Shown: one piece after another, positions 37,413 to 58,708 of the stretch
How the letters are laid out: each line of letters starts with the position of its first letter
Numbering within the stretch: the stretch's first letter is position 1
NCBI GenBank assembly: GCA_018433595.1
Contig: JAHDQY010000001.1
Coordinates: 1 to 64,000, forward strand
Length of the DNA stretch: 64,000 bases
Reading direction: 5' to 3'
Source of the DNA: Synergistales bacterium
GTDB taxonomy: Bacteria; Synergistota; Synergistia; Synergistales; Aminithiophilaceae
Notes under the pieces: generated by a model
Databases searched by the model: none
What the model was told of the DNA's origin: nothing
Seen by the model: only the letters and a program-made list of their open reading frames with translations
Made by a program: the position numbers and the translations under genes

Positions 37413-38198
37413 TTGGCCCGTTTTTCCGTGGCGACCTTCAACGTCAATTCCGTCCGCTCCCGGCTTCCCGTTCTGGAGCGGTGGCTTCCCGCGAACCCCG
37501 TCGATATTCTCTGCCTCCAGGAGACGAAAGTCGTCGATGAGGACTTTCCCGTCGAGGCCTTCGCCGATCTCGGCTACCGGGTGGTCTTCCGGGGGCAGAA
37601 GGCCTACAGCGGCGTGGCCCTGGCCAGCCGGTCGGAGCCGGATGAGGTTTCCTGCGGTTTCGACGACGGCCTTGATCCCGATGACGGTCCCCGCCTCATC
37701 CGGGCCCGCTTCGGCGATCTTGTAGTCGTCAACACCTATGTTCCTCAGGGCAAGAGCATCGACCACCCGGACTTCGAATACAAGAAGGCCTTTCTCCGGC
37801 GCCTGGCGGCCCTCTTCGACAGAGATCTGGCTCATGGTGGCCCCCTCCTCTGGGTGGGCGATCTCAACGTGGCTCCCACCGAGGACGATGTGACCCACCC
37901 GGCCAACAAGAAAGACCACGTCTGCTTTCACCTCTCCATCCGGGAGCTCTACGCCGAGGTCGTCGAGGGGCGCTTCGTCGACGTCTTCCGCCGCCACCGT
38001 CCCGGCCCGGGGGAGTTCTCCTTCTGGGATTACCGGATCAAGAACGCTCTGGAGCGAAACATCGGCTGGCGCATCGATCACGTCCTGGCCACGCCCGATC
38101 TGGCCGAACGCTCCGTCGACTGCTATGCTGACCGTGAGCCCCGCGGCTGGGAGAGGCCGTCGGACCATACCGTCGTCGTCGCCTGTTTCGAACGATGA
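37413..38198 (+). CDS. xth: exodeoxyribonuclease III
   Basis: This AP endonuclease/3'-5' exonuclease of the ExoIII family is about 261 residues from TTG 37413, which has GAAGGAGG eight bases upstream and gives the usual N-terminus RFSVATFNVNSVRSRL. Conserved sites visible are LQETKV (metal glutamate), the GDLNVAP segment and SDHTVVVA (catalytic aspartate-histidine). It repairs abasic sites in DNA. The next gene overlaps its stop by four bases. Confidence 0.93.
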   Translation: MARFSVATFNVNSVRSRLPVLERWLPANPVDILCLQETKVVDEDFPVEAFADLGYRVVFRGQKAYSGVALASRSEPDEVSCGFDDGLDPDDGPRLIRARFGDLVVVNTYVPQGKSIDHPDFEYKKAFLRRLAALFDRDLAHGGPLLWVGDLNVAPTEDDVTHPANKKDHVCFHLSIRELYAEVVEGRFVDVFRRHRPGPGEFSFWDYRIKNALERNIGWRIDHVLATPDLAERSVDCYADREPRGWERPSDHTVVVACFER

Positions 38199-39076
38199 GG
38201 CAGGAGGTATCCTTGCCGGGAACCGTCGGCGAATGGGTCCAGGGGTGGCTTCTTCCCGACGGGGAGGCGCTGGTCAGCCTCGTCGTCCCCTGGAGGGGAA
38301 CGGTTCTCGTCGGCGAAGACCTTAAGGAGCCTCTGCCTTCAAAGGCCGGTCGGGCCCTTGTCCTGGCCAGGGAACGGCTGGGTCTTTCCGCCCTGGGGGC
38401 CCGCCTGGAAAACCCCCTGCCCATCGGAAAGGGTCTGGCCTCGTCGACGGTCGACGTCTGCGGCGTCCTGGCGGCCGCCTCCCGCCTCGGCTCCGCGATC
38501 TGGAGCGACGAGGAGATCTTCGCCCTGGGCTGCTCCGTCGAGCCTTCCGACGGCATCATCTTTCCCGGCCTGGCTCTCGTCGATCATCTTCGGGGGCGTC
38601 TGATCGAGCGACTGCCCTCCCCGCCGCCTCTTGTGGCCGTAGCTCTCATCCCGCCCCGCGGCCTCGACACCGAGGCCTACCGCCGCGATCCCTCCTTTCT
38701 GGAGTGCCTCCGCCGGCGGGCTTCGGAGCACCGCCGCGCTTACGGCCTGCTGCGTCGCGGGCTTTTGGCCGGAGATGCGGCCCTTGCCGCCCAGGGTGCC
38801 ACCCTCTCGGCGCGGACCCAGCAGGGCCTGGCGCCGCGCCCGGAGTGGCCCCTTCTGGAGCGGGGGCTCGGCCTTCCCGGCTCTCTCGGCATCGCCCTGG
38901 CCCATTCGGGAACGGCCGCAGCCCTTCTCCTGCGTGATCGTAGGTCCGCCGAGGCGGCCTGCTCTCTCTTCCGGGCATCCTTCGACGGTGATGTTGCCCT
39001 CTTCGAGCCCTGCGGAGGAGGCGCGCTCTATGTCCGAGAGGAAACCCCTCTCCCGGACCGGCCGGGCAAGGGCTGA
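38195..39076 (+). CDS. GHMP kinase, PduX-like (putative L-threonine kinase)
   Basis: This 293-residue protein has the GHMP phosphate-binding loop PIGKGLASST near residue 75 and a PGTVGEWVQG N-terminus like the PduX family, which makes L-threonine phosphate for the nucleotide loop of cobalamin. The C-terminal GHMP motif is suggested by LGIALAHSGTAAALLL. ATG 38195 overlaps the xth stop; TTG 38213 has an excellent AGGAGG and would start right at PGT. No other cobalamin genes are beside it. Confidence 0.72.
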   Translation: MRQEVSLPGTVGEWVQGWLLPDGEALVSLVVPWRGTVLVGEDLKEPLPSKAGRALVLARERLGLSALGARLENPLPIGKGLASSTVDVCGVLAAASRLGSAIWSDEEIFALGCSVEPSDGIIFPGLALVDHLRGRLIERLPSPPPLVAVALIPPRGLDTEAYRRDPSFLECLRRRASEHRRAYGLLRRGLLAGDAALAAQGATLSARTQQGLAPRPEWPLLERGLGLPGSLGIALAHSGTAAALLLRDRRSAEAACSLFRASFDGDVALFEPCGGGALYVREETPLPDRPGKG

Positions 39077-40232: not shown

Positions 40233-40261
40233 TTGACAATTCAAGAGCCTTTTGCTAAACT
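40233..40261 (+). promoter_or_regulatory. strong promoter upstream of a terminator
   Basis: TTGACA (40233-40238), 17 bases, TAAACT (40256-40261). The expected start is near 40268. A terminator follows about 40 bases on, before the next gene. Confidence 0.65.
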
Positions 40262-40429: not shown

Positions 40430-42040
40430 ATGAACGTACGAACAGGAGCGGCACAGGCCGTAAAAACCCTGGAGACCCTTGGCGCCGATGTCGTCTTCGG
40501 CATTCCCGGCATCCACAACCTCGATCTTTACGATGCCCTTCTCGATTCCCCTCTCAGACATATCGCCACCCGCCACGAACAGGGAGCGGCCTTCGCCGCC
40601 GACGGCTATGCCCGCCTCACCGGTCGACCCGGCGTCGCCCTTCTCATCACCGGGCCGGGCCTGACCAATGCCCTCACGGCCATGGCTCAGGCCTATCACG
40701 ATTCGGTCCCTCTTCTCGTCCTTTCCAGTGACGTTCCCCGGGCCTATGGCGGAGGGAGGAGGGGTTTCCTCCACGAACTGCGCGATTCCCAGGGAATGGC
40801 CCGCCTCGTCTGCAAGGAAAGCCTTTCCGTGGCCGACCTCTCCGACATCGCTCCGGCCCTTTCCCGAGCCTGGAGAATCTGCCTTCAAGGCCGCCCCGGT
40901 CCGGTTCACGTCGAAATTCCCCTGGATCTCCTTTCCCGGGCGATTCCCTTCGAAGATCCGCGCCCCCTGGCCGAAACGTACCCGCCGCCTCTTCCGCCCC
41001 TTGATGAGGCTGTCGACCTCCTTCGCGAAGCCTCCCAGGTGGCCGTCATCGCCGGCGGAGGAGCTCGAAGGGCTGCGGGACCCCTGGCATCGCTGGTCGA
41101 ACGTCTCGGATCGCCCCTGGCGACGACCTGTGCAGGCAAGGGTATTCTCGATGAAAGGCATCCCTTGAGCCTGGGAACGACGCTTCATATGGCTCCGGTC
41201 CGGGCCTTTCTCGAATCCTCCGACATCCTTCTCGTCATCGGATCCGAACTTTCCCCCACCGATCTCTGGGAAGCTCCCCTTCGCCCACGCGGCAAGATCA
41301 TCCGCATCGATCTCGATCCGGCCCATTTCATAGCCGAACCCCGAACCGATGTCCCTCTCGTTGCCGATGCGAAAGCCGCCATCGAGGCCCTTGCAGCGGC
41401 TCTCCCCGAAAAAACCGTCCCCTTGGAAGGTCGGAGCGAAATGGTGAGGCGCCTCCTTGCCGAGGCTCGATCCTCTCTGCCCGCCCTCACCGGCTTCGGC
41501 CCTCTTTTCGGCGAGGCCGAAGTCTTTCTCGGCGCTCTTCGCGGGGCGATGCCCGAGGAGGGAACTCTTTTTGCCGACATGACGACGCCGGCCTATCTGG
41601 CGCTGAGCGAATTTCCCGTTTTCAGCCCGGGCCGGTTCTTCCATCCCGTCGGTTTCGGGACCCTGGGATGGGCCTTGCCGGCGGCTCTCGGCGCCCGTGC
41701 CGCCGACCGGGAGCGCCCCGTCGTCGTTCTTGCCGGCGACGGAGGCTTTCAGTTCACTCTGCCCGAGCTGGCCCTTTCCGTCGAGGAGAGGCTTCCCCTC
41801 GTCATCGTCCTCTGGAACGACGGCGGCTTCGGCGAGATCCGCCGCAACGAGGAGGCCCGTCACCGGGGGAGGACGATCGCCGTCGATCATCGCACCCCTG
41901 ATTTCGTCGCCCTGGCCCGGGCTTACGGAATCGGCGCTTTCGGCGTCTCCTCCCCTTCGGATCTGGAGATGCATCTGGCCGAGGCTTTAGCCTCGCATCG
42001 GACGACGCTGATCGACTACCGCGTCGGAGGTGGCCGTTGA
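40430..42040 (+). CDS. ThDP-dependent decarboxylase/acetolactate-synthase-like, AruI type
   Basis: This 536-residue enzyme has the three-domain thiamine-diphosphate plan: the N-terminal catalytic glutamate in RHEQGAAFAADGYAR, a central domain and the cofactor motif AGDGGFQFTLPEL...LWNDGGFGEI. The GIPGIHNLDLYDAL opening and GGRRGFLHEL resemble 5-guanidino-2-oxopentanoate decarboxylase (AruI) more than biosynthetic acetolactate synthase. It probably decarboxylates a 2-oxo acid. It overlaps the aminotransferase gene, which could supply that 2-oxo acid. Confidence 0.8.
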   Translation: MNVRTGAAQAVKTLETLGADVVFGIPGIHNLDLYDALLDSPLRHIATRHEQGAAFAADGYARLTGRPGVALLITGPGLTNALTAMAQAYHDSVPLLVLSSDVPRAYGGGRRGFLHELRDSQGMARLVCKESLSVADLSDIAPALSRAWRICLQGRPGPVHVEIPLDLLSRAIPFEDPRPLAETYPPPLPPLDEAVDLLREASQVAVIAGGGARRAAGPLASLVERLGSPLATTCAGKGILDERHPLSLGTTLHMAPVRAFLESSDILLVIGSELSPTDLWEAPLRPRGKIIRIDLDPAHFIAEPRTDVPLVADAKAAIEALAAALPEKTVPLEGRSEMVRRLLAEARSSLPALTGFGPLFGEAEVFLGALRGAMPEEGTLFADMTTPAYLALSEFPVFSPGRFFHPVGFGTLGWALPAALGARAADRERPVVVLAGDGGFQFTLPELALSVEERLPLVIVLWNDGGFGEIRRNEEARHRGRTIAVDHRTPDFVALARAYGIGAFGVSSPSDLEMHLAEALASHRTTLIDYRVGGGR

Positions 42041-43173
42041 TGACGATCAGAGGCCTGCGTGAAGCCGTCACCCGGGTTCAGCCCTATGTGCCGGGCAAAA
42101 CCATCGAAGAGGTGAGGCGCACTCTCGGTCTGGAAGAGATCATCAAGCTCGGTTCCAACGAGAACCCCTACGGCCCCTTCCCCGAGTCGATCCGGGCCAT
42201 GGCGGAAGAGCTGCACAACCTCAACCGCTACCCCGACGTCTCCTTCGAGCGGATCAAGGCGCTCCTCGGCGATCTCCAGGGTCTTCCGCCCCGGTGTTTC
42301 GCCCTTTCCCACGGTGCCGAGGGCATGCTTCAGACCATGGGCAAGTGCTTCATCGAGCCCGGCGACGAGGTCATCCTGCCGGCGGCCACCTACAGCCTCT
42401 ACCTGGAGATCACCCGTCTCATGGGGGGCATCCCCGTGGCCGTACCGCTGGCCGAGGGTTTTCGGGCCGATCCGGAGGCGATCCTCAGGGCCGTCGGACC
42501 CAGGACGAAACTGATCTGGCTGGCCAACCCCAACAATCCCACGGGGACGGCCTGTGACGTCCGAGCCCTGGAGAGGCTCATCCGGTCCCTGCCCCGGGAC
42601 GTCTGGCTCATCCTCGACGAGGCCTATGCCGAATTCGCCGCCGGCGCTCTCCTGCCCGACCGGCGGCGGCTCATCGAAGAGGGGCGCAATGTCATCGCCA
42701 TCCGGACCTTCTCCAAGGCCTGGGGGCTGGCCGGCGCCCGCCTCGGCTACGCCATGGCCCGGCCCGAGATGGTGACCGTCATCGACACCGTCAGCGAGCC
42801 CTTCAACGCCAACCGCGTCGCCCTCGCCGGGGCTCAGGCCGCCCTCGCCGAGGGACGGAGCTCCTACGAGAAGGCCTTGGCCACGATCCTCGCCGACCGG
42901 GCCTGGCTCGCCGCCGAGCTGGAGAAACGGGGTTGCACCGTCGTTCCCTCACAGACGAACTTCCTCTTCTTCGAGACGCCCTACAGCGCGCCCGAACTCT
43001 CCCAGGCCCTTCTCGAGCGGGGCGTCATCGTCCGGTCCTGCGAGGGCTGGGGCTTCGATCGGGCGATCCGGGTCAGTGTCGGCACCACCGAAGAGACGAG
43101 GCGCTTCGTCTCCCTTTTCGGCGCCGTGCTCGGTGATTTTTGCAAGGGGGTGAAGCGCCATGGTCGAATTTGA
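42040..43173 (+). CDS. HisC-like class I/II aminotransferase
   Basis: This PLP enzyme of 377 residues has KLGSNENPYGPFP, NRYPD, LANPNNPTGT, LDEAYAEF and FSKAWGLAGARLGY with the PLP lysine. The pattern is histidinol-phosphate aminotransferase-like. The absence of other histidine genes and the decarboxylase/transporter neighbours suggest a catabolic amino acid transaminase. ATG 42040 shares its first base with the previous stop and follows GGAGG. It overlaps the next gene by 14 bases. Confidence 0.85.
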   Translation: MTIRGLREAVTRVQPYVPGKTIEEVRRTLGLEEIIKLGSNENPYGPFPESIRAMAEELHNLNRYPDVSFERIKALLGDLQGLPPRCFALSHGAEGMLQTMGKCFIEPGDEVILPAATYSLYLEITRLMGGIPVAVPLAEGFRADPEAILRAVGPRTKLIWLANPNNPTGTACDVRALERLIRSLPRDVWLILDEAYAEFAAGALLPDRRRLIEEGRNVIAIRTFSKAWGLAGARLGYAMARPEMVTVIDTVSEPFNANRVALAGAQAALAEGRSSYEKALATILADRAWLAAELEKRGCTVVPSQTNFLFFETPYSAPELSQALLERGVIVRSCEGWGFDRAIRVSVGTTEETRRFVSLFGAVLGDFCKGVKRHGRI

Positions 43174-44290
43174 GGCGGTCAGCAAGGTCTATGAGGACGG
43201 AACCCGAGCCGTCGACGCCCTGGACCTTTCCATTGCCAAGGGCGAATTCGCCGTCCTCATCGGCCCGTCGGGCTGCGGCAAGACGACGAGCCTGAAGATG
43301 GTCAACCGCCTTGAGGAATGCACGGAGGGGAGCATTCTCGTCGACGGCAGGGACATCCAGGATGTCGATCCCGTGACGCTGCGCCGGGGCATCGGCTATG
43401 TCGTTCAGGACATCGCCCTCATGCCCCACCTTTCGGTGGGGGAGAACATCGCCACCGTCCCTCGCCTTCTGGGCTGGAAGAAGGACCGGATCGCCGGGCG
43501 CGTTGACGAGCTTCTCGCCATGGCCGGCCTGGAACCGAAAAAATACCGCTACCGCCTCCCCGATCAGCTCTCGGGCGGCCAGAAACAGCGTATCGGCGTC
43601 CTCCGGGCCCTGGCGGCCGATCCCGACGTCATCCTCATGGACGAACCCTTCGGTGCCCTCGATCCCCTGAGCCGGGACAAACTTCAGACGGAGCTGCTGG
43701 AGATGCAGAAGGCCGTCAGAAAGACGATCCTCTTCGTCACCCACGATATGGACGAGGCTCTCAAAATGGCCGACAAGGTCATTCTCATGCGTCGGGGCAG
43801 GATCGAACAGATGGGTTCTCCCGCCGAAATTCAGGAAAACCCCGCCAGCGACTTCGTCCGCAGCTTCCTCGGCGAAGACCGCCTGGCCAAGATCACGCCC
43901 GACATGAGCGTCGAGAGCCTCGTGCAGGAACCCTACCTGCGTGTCCTGGCGGCGCAGAAGGCCTCCGCCGTCCTTGATCAGATGGAGGATCTCAATCTCG
44001 ACACGGCCCAGGTCGTCGACGACAAGGGCAAGTGGGTCGGAATGGTCGTTCCCAAACGGGCCCGGGCCCTGGCCCGCAACGGCGGCACCATCGCCCGGGC
44101 GGTGCGAAAAGACCGGCGGCTTGACATCGGCACGGCGACCATCAGCGATGCCGCGGCCATGCTGGCCGATCTCGACCTGCCCGTCCCGATCCTTGACGGA
44201 CAGGGCCGACTGCTGGGCATCGTCGACTCCTCAAGCATCGCACGACTGGCCATCGGCCGGCTCTGCCGCAAAGGAGGTGAGGTGCAATGA
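43160..44290 (+). CDS. quaternary-amine ABC importer ATPase with CBS domains (OpuCA/ProV type)
   Basis: This 376-residue ATPase has Walker A GPSGCGKTT, the signature LSGGQKQR and Walker B VILMDEP, then a C-terminal CBS pair (about 255-375; LDQMEDLNLDTAQVVDD and ILDGQGRLLGIVDSS). In OpuA/OpuC transporters CBS domains sense ionic strength or c-di-AMP. Family substrates are glycine betaine, carnitine, choline and similar compounds; the real ligand here is unknown. Confidence 0.9.
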   Translation: MVEFEAVSKVYEDGTRAVDALDLSIAKGEFAVLIGPSGCGKTTSLKMVNRLEECTEGSILVDGRDIQDVDPVTLRRGIGYVVQDIALMPHLSVGENIATVPRLLGWKKDRIAGRVDELLAMAGLEPKKYRYRLPDQLSGGQKQRIGVLRALAADPDVILMDEPFGALDPLSRDKLQTELLEMQKAVRKTILFVTHDMDEALKMADKVILMRRGRIEQMGSPAEIQENPASDFVRSFLGEDRLAKITPDMSVESLVQEPYLRVLAAQKASAVLDQMEDLNLDTAQVVDDKGKWVGMVVPKRARALARNGGTIARAVRKDRRLDIGTATISDAAAMLADLDLPVPILDGQGRLLGIVDSSSIARLAIGRLCRKGGEVQ

Positions 44291-45105
44291 CGCAGCGCAG
44301 CCTCTGGGACCTTTTCATCACCTTTGTGGTCCGCTCCTACCCGCGGATCCTCATGTTGACCTGGCAGCACCTCTACATCTCCGGGATCGCCCTGGCCATC
44401 ACTTTGGCCATCTGCATTCCCCTGGGCATCTACCTGACGAGAAACGAGAAGCTGGCCCCCTACGTCATCGGCCTGGCCAACGTCTTTCAGACTATTCCGA
44501 GCCTGGCTCTGCTGGGCTTTCTGATCTTCATCTTCGGCATCGGCAACGACAACGCCATCGCCGCCCTGATCCTCTATGCCATGCTGCCCGTGATCCAGAA
44601 CACCTACACGGGGCTCAGGAACGTCCCCTCCTCGCTGATTCAGGCCGCCCGGGGCATGGGCATGACGGAACGCCAGATCCTCCTCAAGGTCCAGCTGCCT
44701 TTGGCCCGACCCGTTCTCATCGCCGGCATCCGCGTCGCCACCGTCTGGGTCATCGGCACGGCCACCCTGGCTTCGGCCATCGGCGGCGGCGGGCTGGGGC
44801 GGCTCATCTTCTCGGGGCTTGCCTCGATCCGCAACGAGGTTATCCTGGCCGGCGCCATCCCGGCGACGCTGCTGGCCCTCATGGCCGATCAGCTCCTTAA
44901 GAAACTGGAAAACTACTACAGCCCTGAGATAAGGGCCAGGCGGTTAGCCAAGCTGGGTCCCCTTGAGCCGGACGAGATCTGGGACAGCGATCTTGACGAA
45001 ACGGTCATCACTGAAGAATTCGAGGAGACGACGGAAGAGAGCGTCGAGACGTCCTCTGAGGGAACGTCCGATCTCGACAGGACGAAAGGAGAGGATGCTT
45101 CATGA
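44287..45105 (+). CDS. quaternary-amine ABC importer permease (OpuCB/ProW type)
   Basis: This 272-residue membrane protein has about six segments and the coupling motif AARGMGMTERQILLKVQLPLA. After the membrane part there is a long acidic tail (from about 215) rich in glutamate, aspartate and threonine, which ordinary OpuCB proteins lack. It overlaps its neighbours by four bases on both sides (ATGA), so it is tightly coupled. Confidence 0.9.
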   Translation: MTQRSLWDLFITFVVRSYPRILMLTWQHLYISGIALAITLAICIPLGIYLTRNEKLAPYVIGLANVFQTIPSLALLGFLIFIFGIGNDNAIAALILYAMLPVIQNTYTGLRNVPSSLIQAARGMGMTERQILLKVQLPLARPVLIAGIRVATVWVIGTATLASAIGGGGLGRLIFSGLASIRNEVILAGAIPATLLALMADQLLKKLENYYSPEIRARRLAKLGPLEPDEIWDSDLDETVITEEFEETTEESVETSSEGTSDLDRTKGEDAS

Positions 45106-46034
45106 AAAACGGGACGAAACGGTGGGTCACGGCACTGCTTTCGCTGACGCTGGCCCTCGTCTTCTGCGCCGTGCCGCTGACGGCGGCTTCTGCCGAAGAG
45201 GATCCCATGAACTACAAGGGAAGAGTGCGCATCGGCGCCCAGCGGGTCAACGAGGCCATCATTCTGGCCTGGATCGCCGGCCTCCTCGTCGAGGAACATT
45301 CCGGCCTCAAGGCCGAGATGATGACCGAATTCGCCGCCTCCTCGGTGGTCCATCAGGCCATGGTCGCCGGCGAACTCGACGTCTACGTCTCCTGGACGGG
45401 GACGCAGCTCACGGGGATCCTCCGCTACGAGGGGCCCAACCTGTCCAAGGAGGAGACCTTCCGCCGCGTCAAGGAGGGCTTCGAGGAGCAGTTCGGCTAC
45501 ACCTGGGCCAGGCCTCTGGGTTTCAGCAACACCTACGTCATGACGGTACGCCGCGAGACGGCCGAGAAGTACAACCTCAAGAAGGCCTCCGACCTGGCCC
45601 CTTACGCCAAAGACTGGAAACTCGGCTGCGACGAGAACTTCGACACCCGGCCCGACGCCTACCCCGGCTGGTCCGAGCTCTACGGCATCAGATTCAGGGA
45701 CGTCCTGCCCATGCAGTACTCCATCATGTACCGGGCCATCGACAACAGGGAAGTGGACGTCATCCCCGCCTACTCGACGGACTCCCGCATCCCCAAAATG
45801 GACCTGGTCATGCTCGAAGACGACAAGGAGTTCTTCCCCGACTACAGCGCCGGCTACATCATCGACATGAAGCTTCTCGAGAAATTTCCCAAGGTCCTGG
45901 GGATCATCGAGAAGGTGAGCGGCACCATCGACGAGGAGACGATGGCCAGGATGAACAGCCGTCACGACGACGGAGACGAAGCCGAGGACATCGCCCGCGA
46001 TTACCTCGCCAGCGTGGGGCTGATCGGCAAATAG
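45102..46034 (+). CDS. quaternary-amine ABC importer substrate-binding protein (OpuAC type)
   Basis: This 310-residue exported protein has a signal peptide (LLSLTLALVFCAVPLTAASA), and the mature part starts with GRVRIGAQRVNEA, as in the OpuAC family. Segments such as AGELDVYVSWTGTQL and DVIPAYSTDSRI are typical for the family and include candidate aromatic cage residues. No lipobox was seen. The gene ends the operon that begins with the decarboxylase. Confidence 0.88.
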   Translation: MKNGTKRWVTALLSLTLALVFCAVPLTAASAEEDPMNYKGRVRIGAQRVNEAIILAWIAGLLVEEHSGLKAEMMTEFAASSVVHQAMVAGELDVYVSWTGTQLTGILRYEGPNLSKEETFRRVKEGFEEQFGYTWARPLGFSNTYVMTVRRETAEKYNLKKASDLAPYAKDWKLGCDENFDTRPDAYPGWSELYGIRFRDVLPMQYSIMYRAIDNREVDVIPAYSTDSRIPKMDLVMLEDDKEFFPDYSAGYIIDMKLLEKFPKVLGIIEKVSGTIDEETMARMNSRHDDGDEAEDIARDYLASVGLIGK

Positions 46035-46140
46035 CTCCCTTTGCGTCGCCGACGGCTTCAGAGTGGATGTGGCACATGCCCCGGTTGTTGGTGCCGTAGG
46101 TCAAAGCCAGGAGCTTGCCCGACCGGGTGCGGCAGGTTCC
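46035..46140 (-). pseudogene. inverted fragment of an aldehyde:ferredoxin oxidoreductase-like gene
   Basis: Read leftward, these bases encode GKLLALTYGTNNRGMCHIH followed by SEAVGDAKGA. This resembles an internal segment of tungsten aldehyde:ferredoxin oxidoreductases, where a cysteine follows an NxRG turn. There is no start codon and it abuts the stop of the binding-protein gene. Confidence 0.5.
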
Positions 46141-46309
46141 ATCCTTCGGCCGCTACGCCGGCGAGGGGCGCTGCGCCATCGCCGACTATGAGGGCATGAT
46201 GGCCGACTACTACGAGGCCCGGGGCTGGGACGAGGCGGGGTGCTCCAAGAAGGAGACCCTGTGCCGTCTCGGACTCTTCCTTCAGGGATTCTCGATGGCG
46301 AACCGGTAG
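46115..46309 (+). pseudogene. C-terminal remnant of an aldehyde:ferredoxin oxidoreductase-like gene
   Basis: The frame MPDRVRQVPSFGRYAGEGRC... continues with ADYEGMMADYYEARGWDEAG and CSKKETLCRLGL, which matches the C-terminal end of AOR-family enzymes (a DYYELRGWD-type motif). Everything upstream is missing or inverted, so this is a decayed or rearranged gene. It overlaps the end of the GNAT gene. Confidence 0.6.
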
Positions 46310-58520: not shown

Positions 58521-58554
58521 AATCGAGAACCGGTCCGGTTGTCCCTGTCCTCGT

Positions 58555-58635
58555 TCGCCATTCCCTCCGCCGGTATGATCCGGATCAGGTTCTAGGGGTG
58601 CGTCTCAGCTCGATGGGTCGAGCGCCCCCTGGCGA
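58555..58635 (-). promoter_or_regulatory. TPP (THI-element) riboswitch
   Basis: Read leftward, P1 is TCGCCA/TGGCGA. The conserved GCTGAGACGC, ACCC, GAACCTGATCCGGATCATACCGGCG and AGGGA blocks of the thiamine pyrophosphate aptamer are all present in order. Binding of TPP should favour the downstream terminator and shut off thiazole synthesis. Confidence 0.95.
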
Positions 58636-58708
58636 TGACTCTGCGGTTCCATTACTACCGCCGATTTCGCTGTCTGTCAAGCTCGGCGGCCGTCTTGCAG
58701 CAGGTTTT

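Follow-up and report, generated by a model that had tools for sequence, protein, structure and literature searches.

A conserved operon of anaerobic bacteria that may import a cationic amino acid and convert it to a shorter betaine-like acid

Why would an importer of the compatible-solute type be encoded together with an aminotransferase and a 2-oxo-acid decarboxylase? The question is raised by an operon of a Synergistales bacterium (GenBank assembly GCA_018433595.1, contig JAHDQY010000001.1; genome of 2.53 Mb in 72 contigs), which we studied in a window comprising the 64,000 nucleotides at positions 1 to 64,000 of that contig. Five plus-strand genes occupy positions 40430-46034, all of them open and with successive overlaps of 1, 14, 4 and 4 bases. 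They encode a thiamine diphosphate (ThDP)-dependent 2-oxo-acid decarboxylase related to AruI (40430..42040), a HisC-like class I/II aminotransferase (42040..43173), a ProV/OpuC-type ATPase (43160..44290), an OpuC-type permease with a BPD_transp_1 match and an acidic C-terminal tail (44287..45105) and an OpuAC-type binding protein (45102..46034). The original prediction, made from the DNA letters alone, had named these families and overlaps of 1-14 bases, and the coordinates of the open reading frames (ORFs) as well as the family assignments agree. Its proposal that an imported cationic amino-acid-like compound is transaminated and the 2-oxo acid then decarboxylated also agrees with the gene set and the way it is conserved, and with the aldehyde oxidiser found in relatives.

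We think it rather probable that the operon imports a cationic, probably quaternary-ammonium, amino acid and converts it to a betaine-like acid one carbon shorter. The OpuC-type importer would take up the amino acid, its charged group, most probably a quaternary ammonium (or sulfonium), being enclosed by an aromatic cage, the HisC-like enzyme would pass the alpha-amino group to an acceptor and the AruI-like ThDP enzyme would decarboxylate the resulting 2-oxo acid. The omega-cationic aldehyde would then be oxidised by a neighbouring aldehyde oxidoreductase (AOR, with ferredoxin) or aldehyde dehydrogenase (ALDH, with NAD) and the shortened acid would be retained as an osmolyte or excreted. We infer this order of reactions, the substrate and the fate of the product from the observed gene set, its coupling and conservation, the co-localised aldehyde oxidisers and the conserved cage.

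The ATPase reaches 344.1 bits on the ProV-type betaine/proline/choline model TIGR01186 (cut-off 326.6) and shows weak similarity to CBS domains at its C-terminus (27.3 bits, cut-off 24), and the binding protein scores 186 bits on the OpuAC model PF04069 (gathering score 21.2) and falls below the OsmF glycine betaine binding protein model NF049931 (88.5 bits, cut-off 400). The aminotransferase starts at the ATG at 42040, overlapping the decarboxylase gene by one base (TGATG; the mechanical ORF call begins at TTG 42037), and matches Aminotran_1_2 and, with 291.1-291.3 bits, the HisC model TIGR01141 (cut-off 276.55). It is probably not the biosynthetic HisC, since the genome encodes a better-scoring hisC (332.7 bits) elsewhere. 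We rejected a biosynthetic role in the histidine or branched-chain pathways because of this second hisC and because the decarboxylase falls outside the acetolactate synthases by score.

How widely is the set kept together? We sampled 185 Synergistota genomes, counting the operon as present where the binding protein matched at 55% identity or more, and found it in 20. Decarboxylase matches at 43% identity or more occur in 19 of these (in G175 the contig ends before the gene) and the aminotransferase also in 19, the remaining genome, G020, carrying two binding proteins. In the congener G023 the binding protein gene is likewise duplicated in tandem (L062:14884-16904), the additional copy being 72% identical to that of the window. 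Outside the phylum we scanned 84,980 species genomes and kept the best 80 of 337 decarboxylase relatives; among those 80 the gene set occurs at 11 loci, all non-Synergistota, the locus L110 breaking off behind the aminotransferase gene. We met a twelfth locus, L203, among 391 sampled genomes of the Sedimentibacter class. The 12 loci belong to Bacillota/Clostridia and Spirochaetota, where the set is scarce (2 of 391 genomes in the Sedimentibacter class and 2 of 392 in Spirochaetota, query genomes included), and at three of them (L105, L106 and L203) the importer genes precede the enzyme genes. Since the set survives transfer between phyla as well as reordering, it is not a chance grouping and the link between its genes is functional, which argues for a single function.

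The decarboxylase also stands without an adjoining importer in four genomes, three of the Acetomicrobium type (G013, G015, G016) and G028, in which it is accompanied by an AOR alone. At the Acetomicrobium-type loci L095 and L096 (and L065-L067) it lacks importer and aminotransferase, lies beside a nicotinamidase-like gene (identified by eye) and has the active-site stretch FGEIRR changed to FGILKN; with its partners gone and this stretch altered, these lone enzymes probably have a new function. We set aside a ThDP gene of 34-35% identity near an Opu-type importer in G106 and G109 (L088, L089), which probably serves isoleucine/valine synthesis because its neighbour, read by eye, is ketol-acid-reductoisomerase-like.

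A transaminase followed by a decarboxylase would yield an aldehyde, and the original prediction had overlooked both the oxidiser of this aldehyde and the broken remnant of its gene in the window. An AOR gene adjoins the operon in 11 of the 20 Synergistota genomes (G017, G018, G020-G025, G040, G041 and G119), that of G018 being cut by the contig end; in G037 and G180 the contig ends too close to the operon for a verdict. The ten intact operon AORs and that of G028 form one clade, with 52-58% identity between families, and a more distant AOR (35-38%) faces the operon in G179. At three intact AORs per 2.5 Mb, chance alone should place one within 10 kb of the operon in roughly 1% of genomes. Eight of the 12 non-Synergistota loci adjoin an ALDH gene instead (L103, L105, L106, L112, L113, L115, L138 and L203); betaine-aldehyde dehydrogenase (BADH) is the best NCBIfam model for five of the six ALDHs scanned and the second best for that of L103, all of them below cut-off. 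L097 has an AOR of only 35% identity beside the set, L107 shows nothing clear and L110 is cut. Aldehyde oxidisers of at least three lineages have thus been recruited to the set, which is what one would expect of genes that produce an aldehyde.

Two neighbours of these loci deserve mention. In a Clostridia metagenome-assembled genome the position of the aldehyde oxidiser is occupied by a putrescine-aminotransferase-like gene (L102:10752-12122), behind which come genes for an IclR regulator and formate-tetrahydrofolate ligase. In some Synergistota (L079-L081) a protein of 98-103 residues, resembling an oligonucleotide/oligosaccharide-binding fold by eye only, is encoded between AOR and decarboxylase, and in some a relative comes after the binding protein gene.

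What kind of 2-oxo acid does the decarboxylase act on? The protein has TPP_enzyme N, M and C matches and a predicted structure with a predicted local distance difference test (pLDDT) score of 88.1. Its closest named model is that of AruI, NF005712, and to this extent the label "AruI-like" of the original prediction stands; family membership in the strict sense does not, the score of 497.3 bits being 2.7 under the cut-off of 500, whereas two aerobic relatives reach 640.7 and 710.3 bits. All 21 operon decarboxylases of our alignment A5 match the 5-guanidino-2-oxopentanoate (2-ketoarginine) decarboxylase model. In a quick tree that used every second comparison row (29 of 57, from a group that holds at least one off-target ThDP protein, the long-branched L125_18 with 27% identity to the window protein), the enzymes of the operon, together with the lone ones of Acetomicrobium, separate from the aerobic AruI relatives with a joint branch support of 86, with one stray row, L104, outside the operon clade. 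The operon decarboxylase is the anaerobic sister of AruI. Relatives are encoded near cation importers, of the ArgT type in Chromobacterium (L170) and of the Pot type in Rhizobium (L116), and the Sinorhizobium relative favours 5-amino-2-oxopentanoate sevenfold over 2-ketoarginine, as given in excerpts of PMC7268258. Model matches, importer neighbours and the Sinorhizobium preference together point to a cationic 2-oxo acid as substrate.

The nearest competing explanation follows from the same enzyme: the substrate could be arginine or a methylated arginine, degraded by a variant of the AruH/AruI pathway to 4-guanidinobutyrate, with an OpuC-type importer recruited for the guanidinium group. Besides the identity of the closest named model, E469 speaks for it, being invariant in A5 and present in the ArgT-linked L170 enzyme (it is Ile in the lone Acetomicrobium ones), as does an arginase-family gene that abuts a decarboxylase relative in Cryobacterium (L130). 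We nevertheless consider arginine unlikely. The window decarboxylase misses the cut-off that its two aerobic relatives exceed, and the neighbourhoods of the operons showed no guanidinobutyrase or other ureohydrolase. The window's genome has a single arginase-family gene, best matched as formimidoylglutamase, itself under cut-off (187.7 bits against 229.15), and two of six other operon genomes have no such gene; the family as a whole (PF00491) occurs in 93 of the 185 Synergistota genomes and does not discriminate. The solved relatives of the binding protein hold quaternary ammonium or related ligands and no arginine.

The predicted structure of the binding protein (mean pLDDT 88.1) resembles AfProX, OpuBC, OpuCC and EgtU with Z scores of 28-35. 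Excerpts of PMC9732360 describe for EgtU a cage of F293, Y341, Y419 and Y443 with N339 and carboxylate contacts by K242, T296 and R379; transferred by spacing, without a printed alignment, these correspond to W98, Y145, Y224, Y248, N143, Q47, T101 and R183. For comparison we reduced 41 operon binding proteins to 26 and 16 others to 14 at 95% identity, excluding L203 and fragments of up to 240 residues. The four-aromatic cage and the Asn base typical of cluster F-III are present, W98, Y145, Y248 and N143 in all 26 and Y224 in 25. Six positions set the operon proteins apart from the 14 remaining Synergistota homologues, with Asn in place of Thr at 50, Trp in place of Tyr at 98, Asn at 179 where 11 of the 14 have Glu, Asp at 181, which varies in the others, Trp at 190 and Tyr at 206. 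N50, W98, N179, W190 and Y206 occur in 26 of 26 operon rows and D181 in 25, and Lys47 is replaced by Gln, as in OpuBC. The operon proteins form one clade (Shimodaira-Hasegawa-like approximate likelihood ratio test 99). The EgtU signature, a cage Phe and a Gly at 244, is absent; in its place stand Trp98 and Val49, the latter position being Val in 35 of 41 proteins. In our reading the cage may hold a quaternary ammonium or similar cation, next to a new polar site for the head group.

Regulation offers a hint to the role of the product. In Sedimentibacter acidaminivorans a cyclic di-AMP (c-di-AMP) riboswitch precedes the operon (L103:8751-8886; 107.6 bits, gathering score 38), and between the two lies a terminator, a strong hairpin with a U-run (-17.3 kcal/mol, z -5.4; the stretch spans L103:8751-8950). 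Because c-di-AMP governs osmolyte and potassium homeostasis (according to portions of PMC5919688 and PMC8517857), this suggests that the operon serves osmotic balance in Sedimentibacter. An Rfam scan upstream of the window's own operon returned nothing, and a guanidine riboswitch was absent from all 24 sources scanned. The product is probably not degraded through guanidinobutyrase, unseen beside the operons, or MttB demethylases; as a sign of betaine breakdown the latter (PF06253) were discarded, since they occur in 20 of 185 genomes and in only two of the 20 operon genomes (G017 and G018), with no link to the operon.

Several observations weigh against import and conversion of a cationic amino acid. 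No AOR lies next to the operon in five of the 20 Synergistota genomes (G120, G175, G178, G182 and G183), and in the window itself the local AOR gene is broken. What is left consists of an inverted 65-base scrap for residues 434-454 (46063..46127, minus strand; 97-98% identical to congeners by blastn, the 21-residue translation being identical) and a C-terminal scrap for residues 566-619 (46115..46276, plus strand; 76% identical to a congener's intact gene). The two abut with about 10 shared bases, an arrangement of the kind produced by template switching or by a chimeric assembly, and in three congeners an intact AOR gene follows the operon. Unless the assembly misses it, the operon's own copy has been lost in this organism and another oxidiser must serve. 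The genome's three other AORs are 24-28% identical, and its sole full-length ALDH, 47-56% identical to the operon ALDHs, could replace the broken enzyme. In the decarboxylase, R472 occurs in 95% of 22 operon rows, where Asp is commonest in relatives, and an arginine pointing into the pocket, should it do so, would sit ill with a cationic substrate. The binding protein keeps R183 in 24 and T101 in 25 of the 26 rows; as their counterparts in EgtU grip a carboxylate near the quaternary nitrogen (excerpts of PMC9732360), they suggest a carboxylate near the cage and hence a short, non-transaminable betaine instead of a long ligand. Finally the c-di-AMP riboswitch was found at just one locus among the 24 sources scanned.

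A second possibility is an ordinary importer of glycine betaine, carnitine or choline, with the enzymes fermenting an unrelated amino acid and the two halves joined by common demand or a Stickland-like pairing. The cage, T101 and R183 are as in osmolyte binders, and the single c-di-AMP riboswitch and the CBS match on the ATPase would agree. We judge this quite improbable, as the linkage outlasts both transfer between phyla and reordering and the pocket is altered at six positions compared with other binding proteins. A plain compatible-solute importer was rejected because it leaves the enzymes kept across phyla unexplained. The original prediction had argued that solute uptake alone needs no such enzymes; a compatible solute may be involved all the same, since the riboswitch in one relative suggests that the enzymes may themselves make it.

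A third possibility, which we find improbable to a still greater degree, is that S-methylmethionine is imported, transaminated, decarboxylated and oxidised by the BADH-type enzyme to dimethylsulfoniopropionate (DMSP) as a compatible solute. The BADH-type ALDHs and the riboswitch of L103 favour it, and the distance from carboxylate to sulfonium would be the same as that from carboxylate to nitrogen in gamma-butyrobetaine, which is of a type that OpuC proteins are known to bind; no DMSP-related neighbour was seen at the loci, however, and it is not obvious how a plant compound would be supplied to protein-fermenting, partly thermophilic Synergistota. Equally improbable is degradation of a histidine- or aromatic-type amino acid, for although the solved structures closest to the aminotransferase are those of HisC and phenylalanine aminotransferase, and both AOR and ALDH act on phenylacetaldehyde in Aromatoleum (parts of PMC6365974), the decarboxylase groups with AruI and not with aromatic 2-oxo-acid decarboxylases, and the binding protein belongs with those for quaternary ammonium compounds.

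If a quaternary-ammonium amino acid is indeed the substrate, which one might it be? Ne-trimethyllysine is a widespread amino acid of this kind, released from proteins and with a free alpha-amino group. Its conversion to 5-trimethylammoniovalerate (delta-valerobetaine) is the likeliest single pair of substrate and product, and we propose it tentatively, as a guess more likely wrong than right. The corresponding route, oxygen-independent import, transamination and decarboxylation with ferredoxin- or NAD-linked oxidation of the aldehyde, is a candidate that we hold to be a shade more doubtful still. Gut microbes form delta-valerobetaine from trimethyllysine with DavB, a lysine 2-monooxygenase, and DavA, and mouse and human studies tie the compound to the gut microbiota (sections of PMC8976029 and PMC11773067). 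DavB/DavA would thus share substrate and product with the favoured pair; the operon route would need no oxygen and would use other enzymes. In the literature searched we found no oxygen-free route from trimethyllysine to delta-valerobetaine.

The chain itself has precedents, so that "undescribed", the word of the original prediction, goes too far: its logic is known from the AruH/AruI arginine transaminase pathway and from anaerobic phenylalanine degradation. The AruH/AruI system of Pseudomonas, and AspC/IlvB1 of Sinorhizobium, share with the operon the transamination, ThDP-dependent decarboxylation of a cationic amino acid and aldehyde oxidation as well as a homologous decarboxylase, and the preference of the Sinorhizobium enzyme for 5-amino-2-oxopentanoate (excerpts of PMC7268258) means that the AruI family accepts varied cationic 2-oxo acids. 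These systems differ in their ArgT or Pot importers, in an aminotransferase of another branch and, in one relative, in a nearby ureohydrolase; the window decarboxylase for its part misses the family cut-off and groups in a clade of its own. In Bacillus, choline imported by OpuB/OpuC is converted by GbsAB to glycine betaine for osmotic balance. Here too an OpuC-type importer of a quaternary-ammonium precursor is combined with a betaine-aldehyde-type dehydrogenase and a carboxylated product, but the aldehyde comes from choline by an alcohol dehydrogenase and in the operon would come from an amino acid by transaminase and decarboxylase. During anaerobic phenylalanine degradation in Aromatoleum, phenylacetaldehyde is oxidised by the ALDH phenylacetaldehyde dehydrogenase (PDH) or a tungsten AOR (parts of PMC6365974). 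The alternative use of ALDH or AOR is shared with the operon, whereas the substrate is aromatic and there is no OpuC importer. The decarboxylase of that pathway belongs to another branch. Among binding proteins, EgtUC, OpuBC, OpuCC and AfProX (cluster F-III) share fold and aromatic cage with that of the operon, which differs in the Gln replacing the carboxylate Lys (also in OpuBC), in the cage Trp and in the new N50, N179, D181, W190 and Y206. Each part and the logic of the chain are thus known, and the combination with a quaternary-ammonium importer we have not found in print; nor did the literature searched mention the spread over three phyla or the exchange of AOR and ALDH.

The operon is a conserved and transferable cassette of anaerobes whose parts indicate one chemistry. 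Delta-valerobetaine is formed by microbes and has been linked to obesity and heart disease. If trimethyllysine were the true substrate the cassette would be an anaerobic source of it, where the described route starts with a monooxygenase, a difficulty for a gut devoid of oxygen; with another cationic amino acid it would still define a route by which Synergistota, Clostridia and Spirochaetota ferment the compound or make an osmolyte. In either case genes now scoring as acetolactate-synthase-like, HisC and osmoprotectant importer would gain a function.

Around the operon, a putative sigma-70-like promoter (TTGACA-17-TAAACT with a TG before the second hexamer; 40233..40261, plus strand) matches the consensus at 10 of 12 positions, one such match being found against 0.6 expected in shuffles, and terminators show no excess in the region (3 found, 4.2 expected). 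Upstream lies a GHMP-kinase-like gene without an NCBIfam match (38195-39076, plus strand), which is kept there in congeners and accompanied in them by a gene for a repeat protein that looks by eye like a pyrroloquinoline quinone (PQQ)-type beta-propeller. Farther downstream the window holds a thiamine pyrophosphate (TPP) riboswitch at 58544-58639 on the minus strand (72.3 bits).

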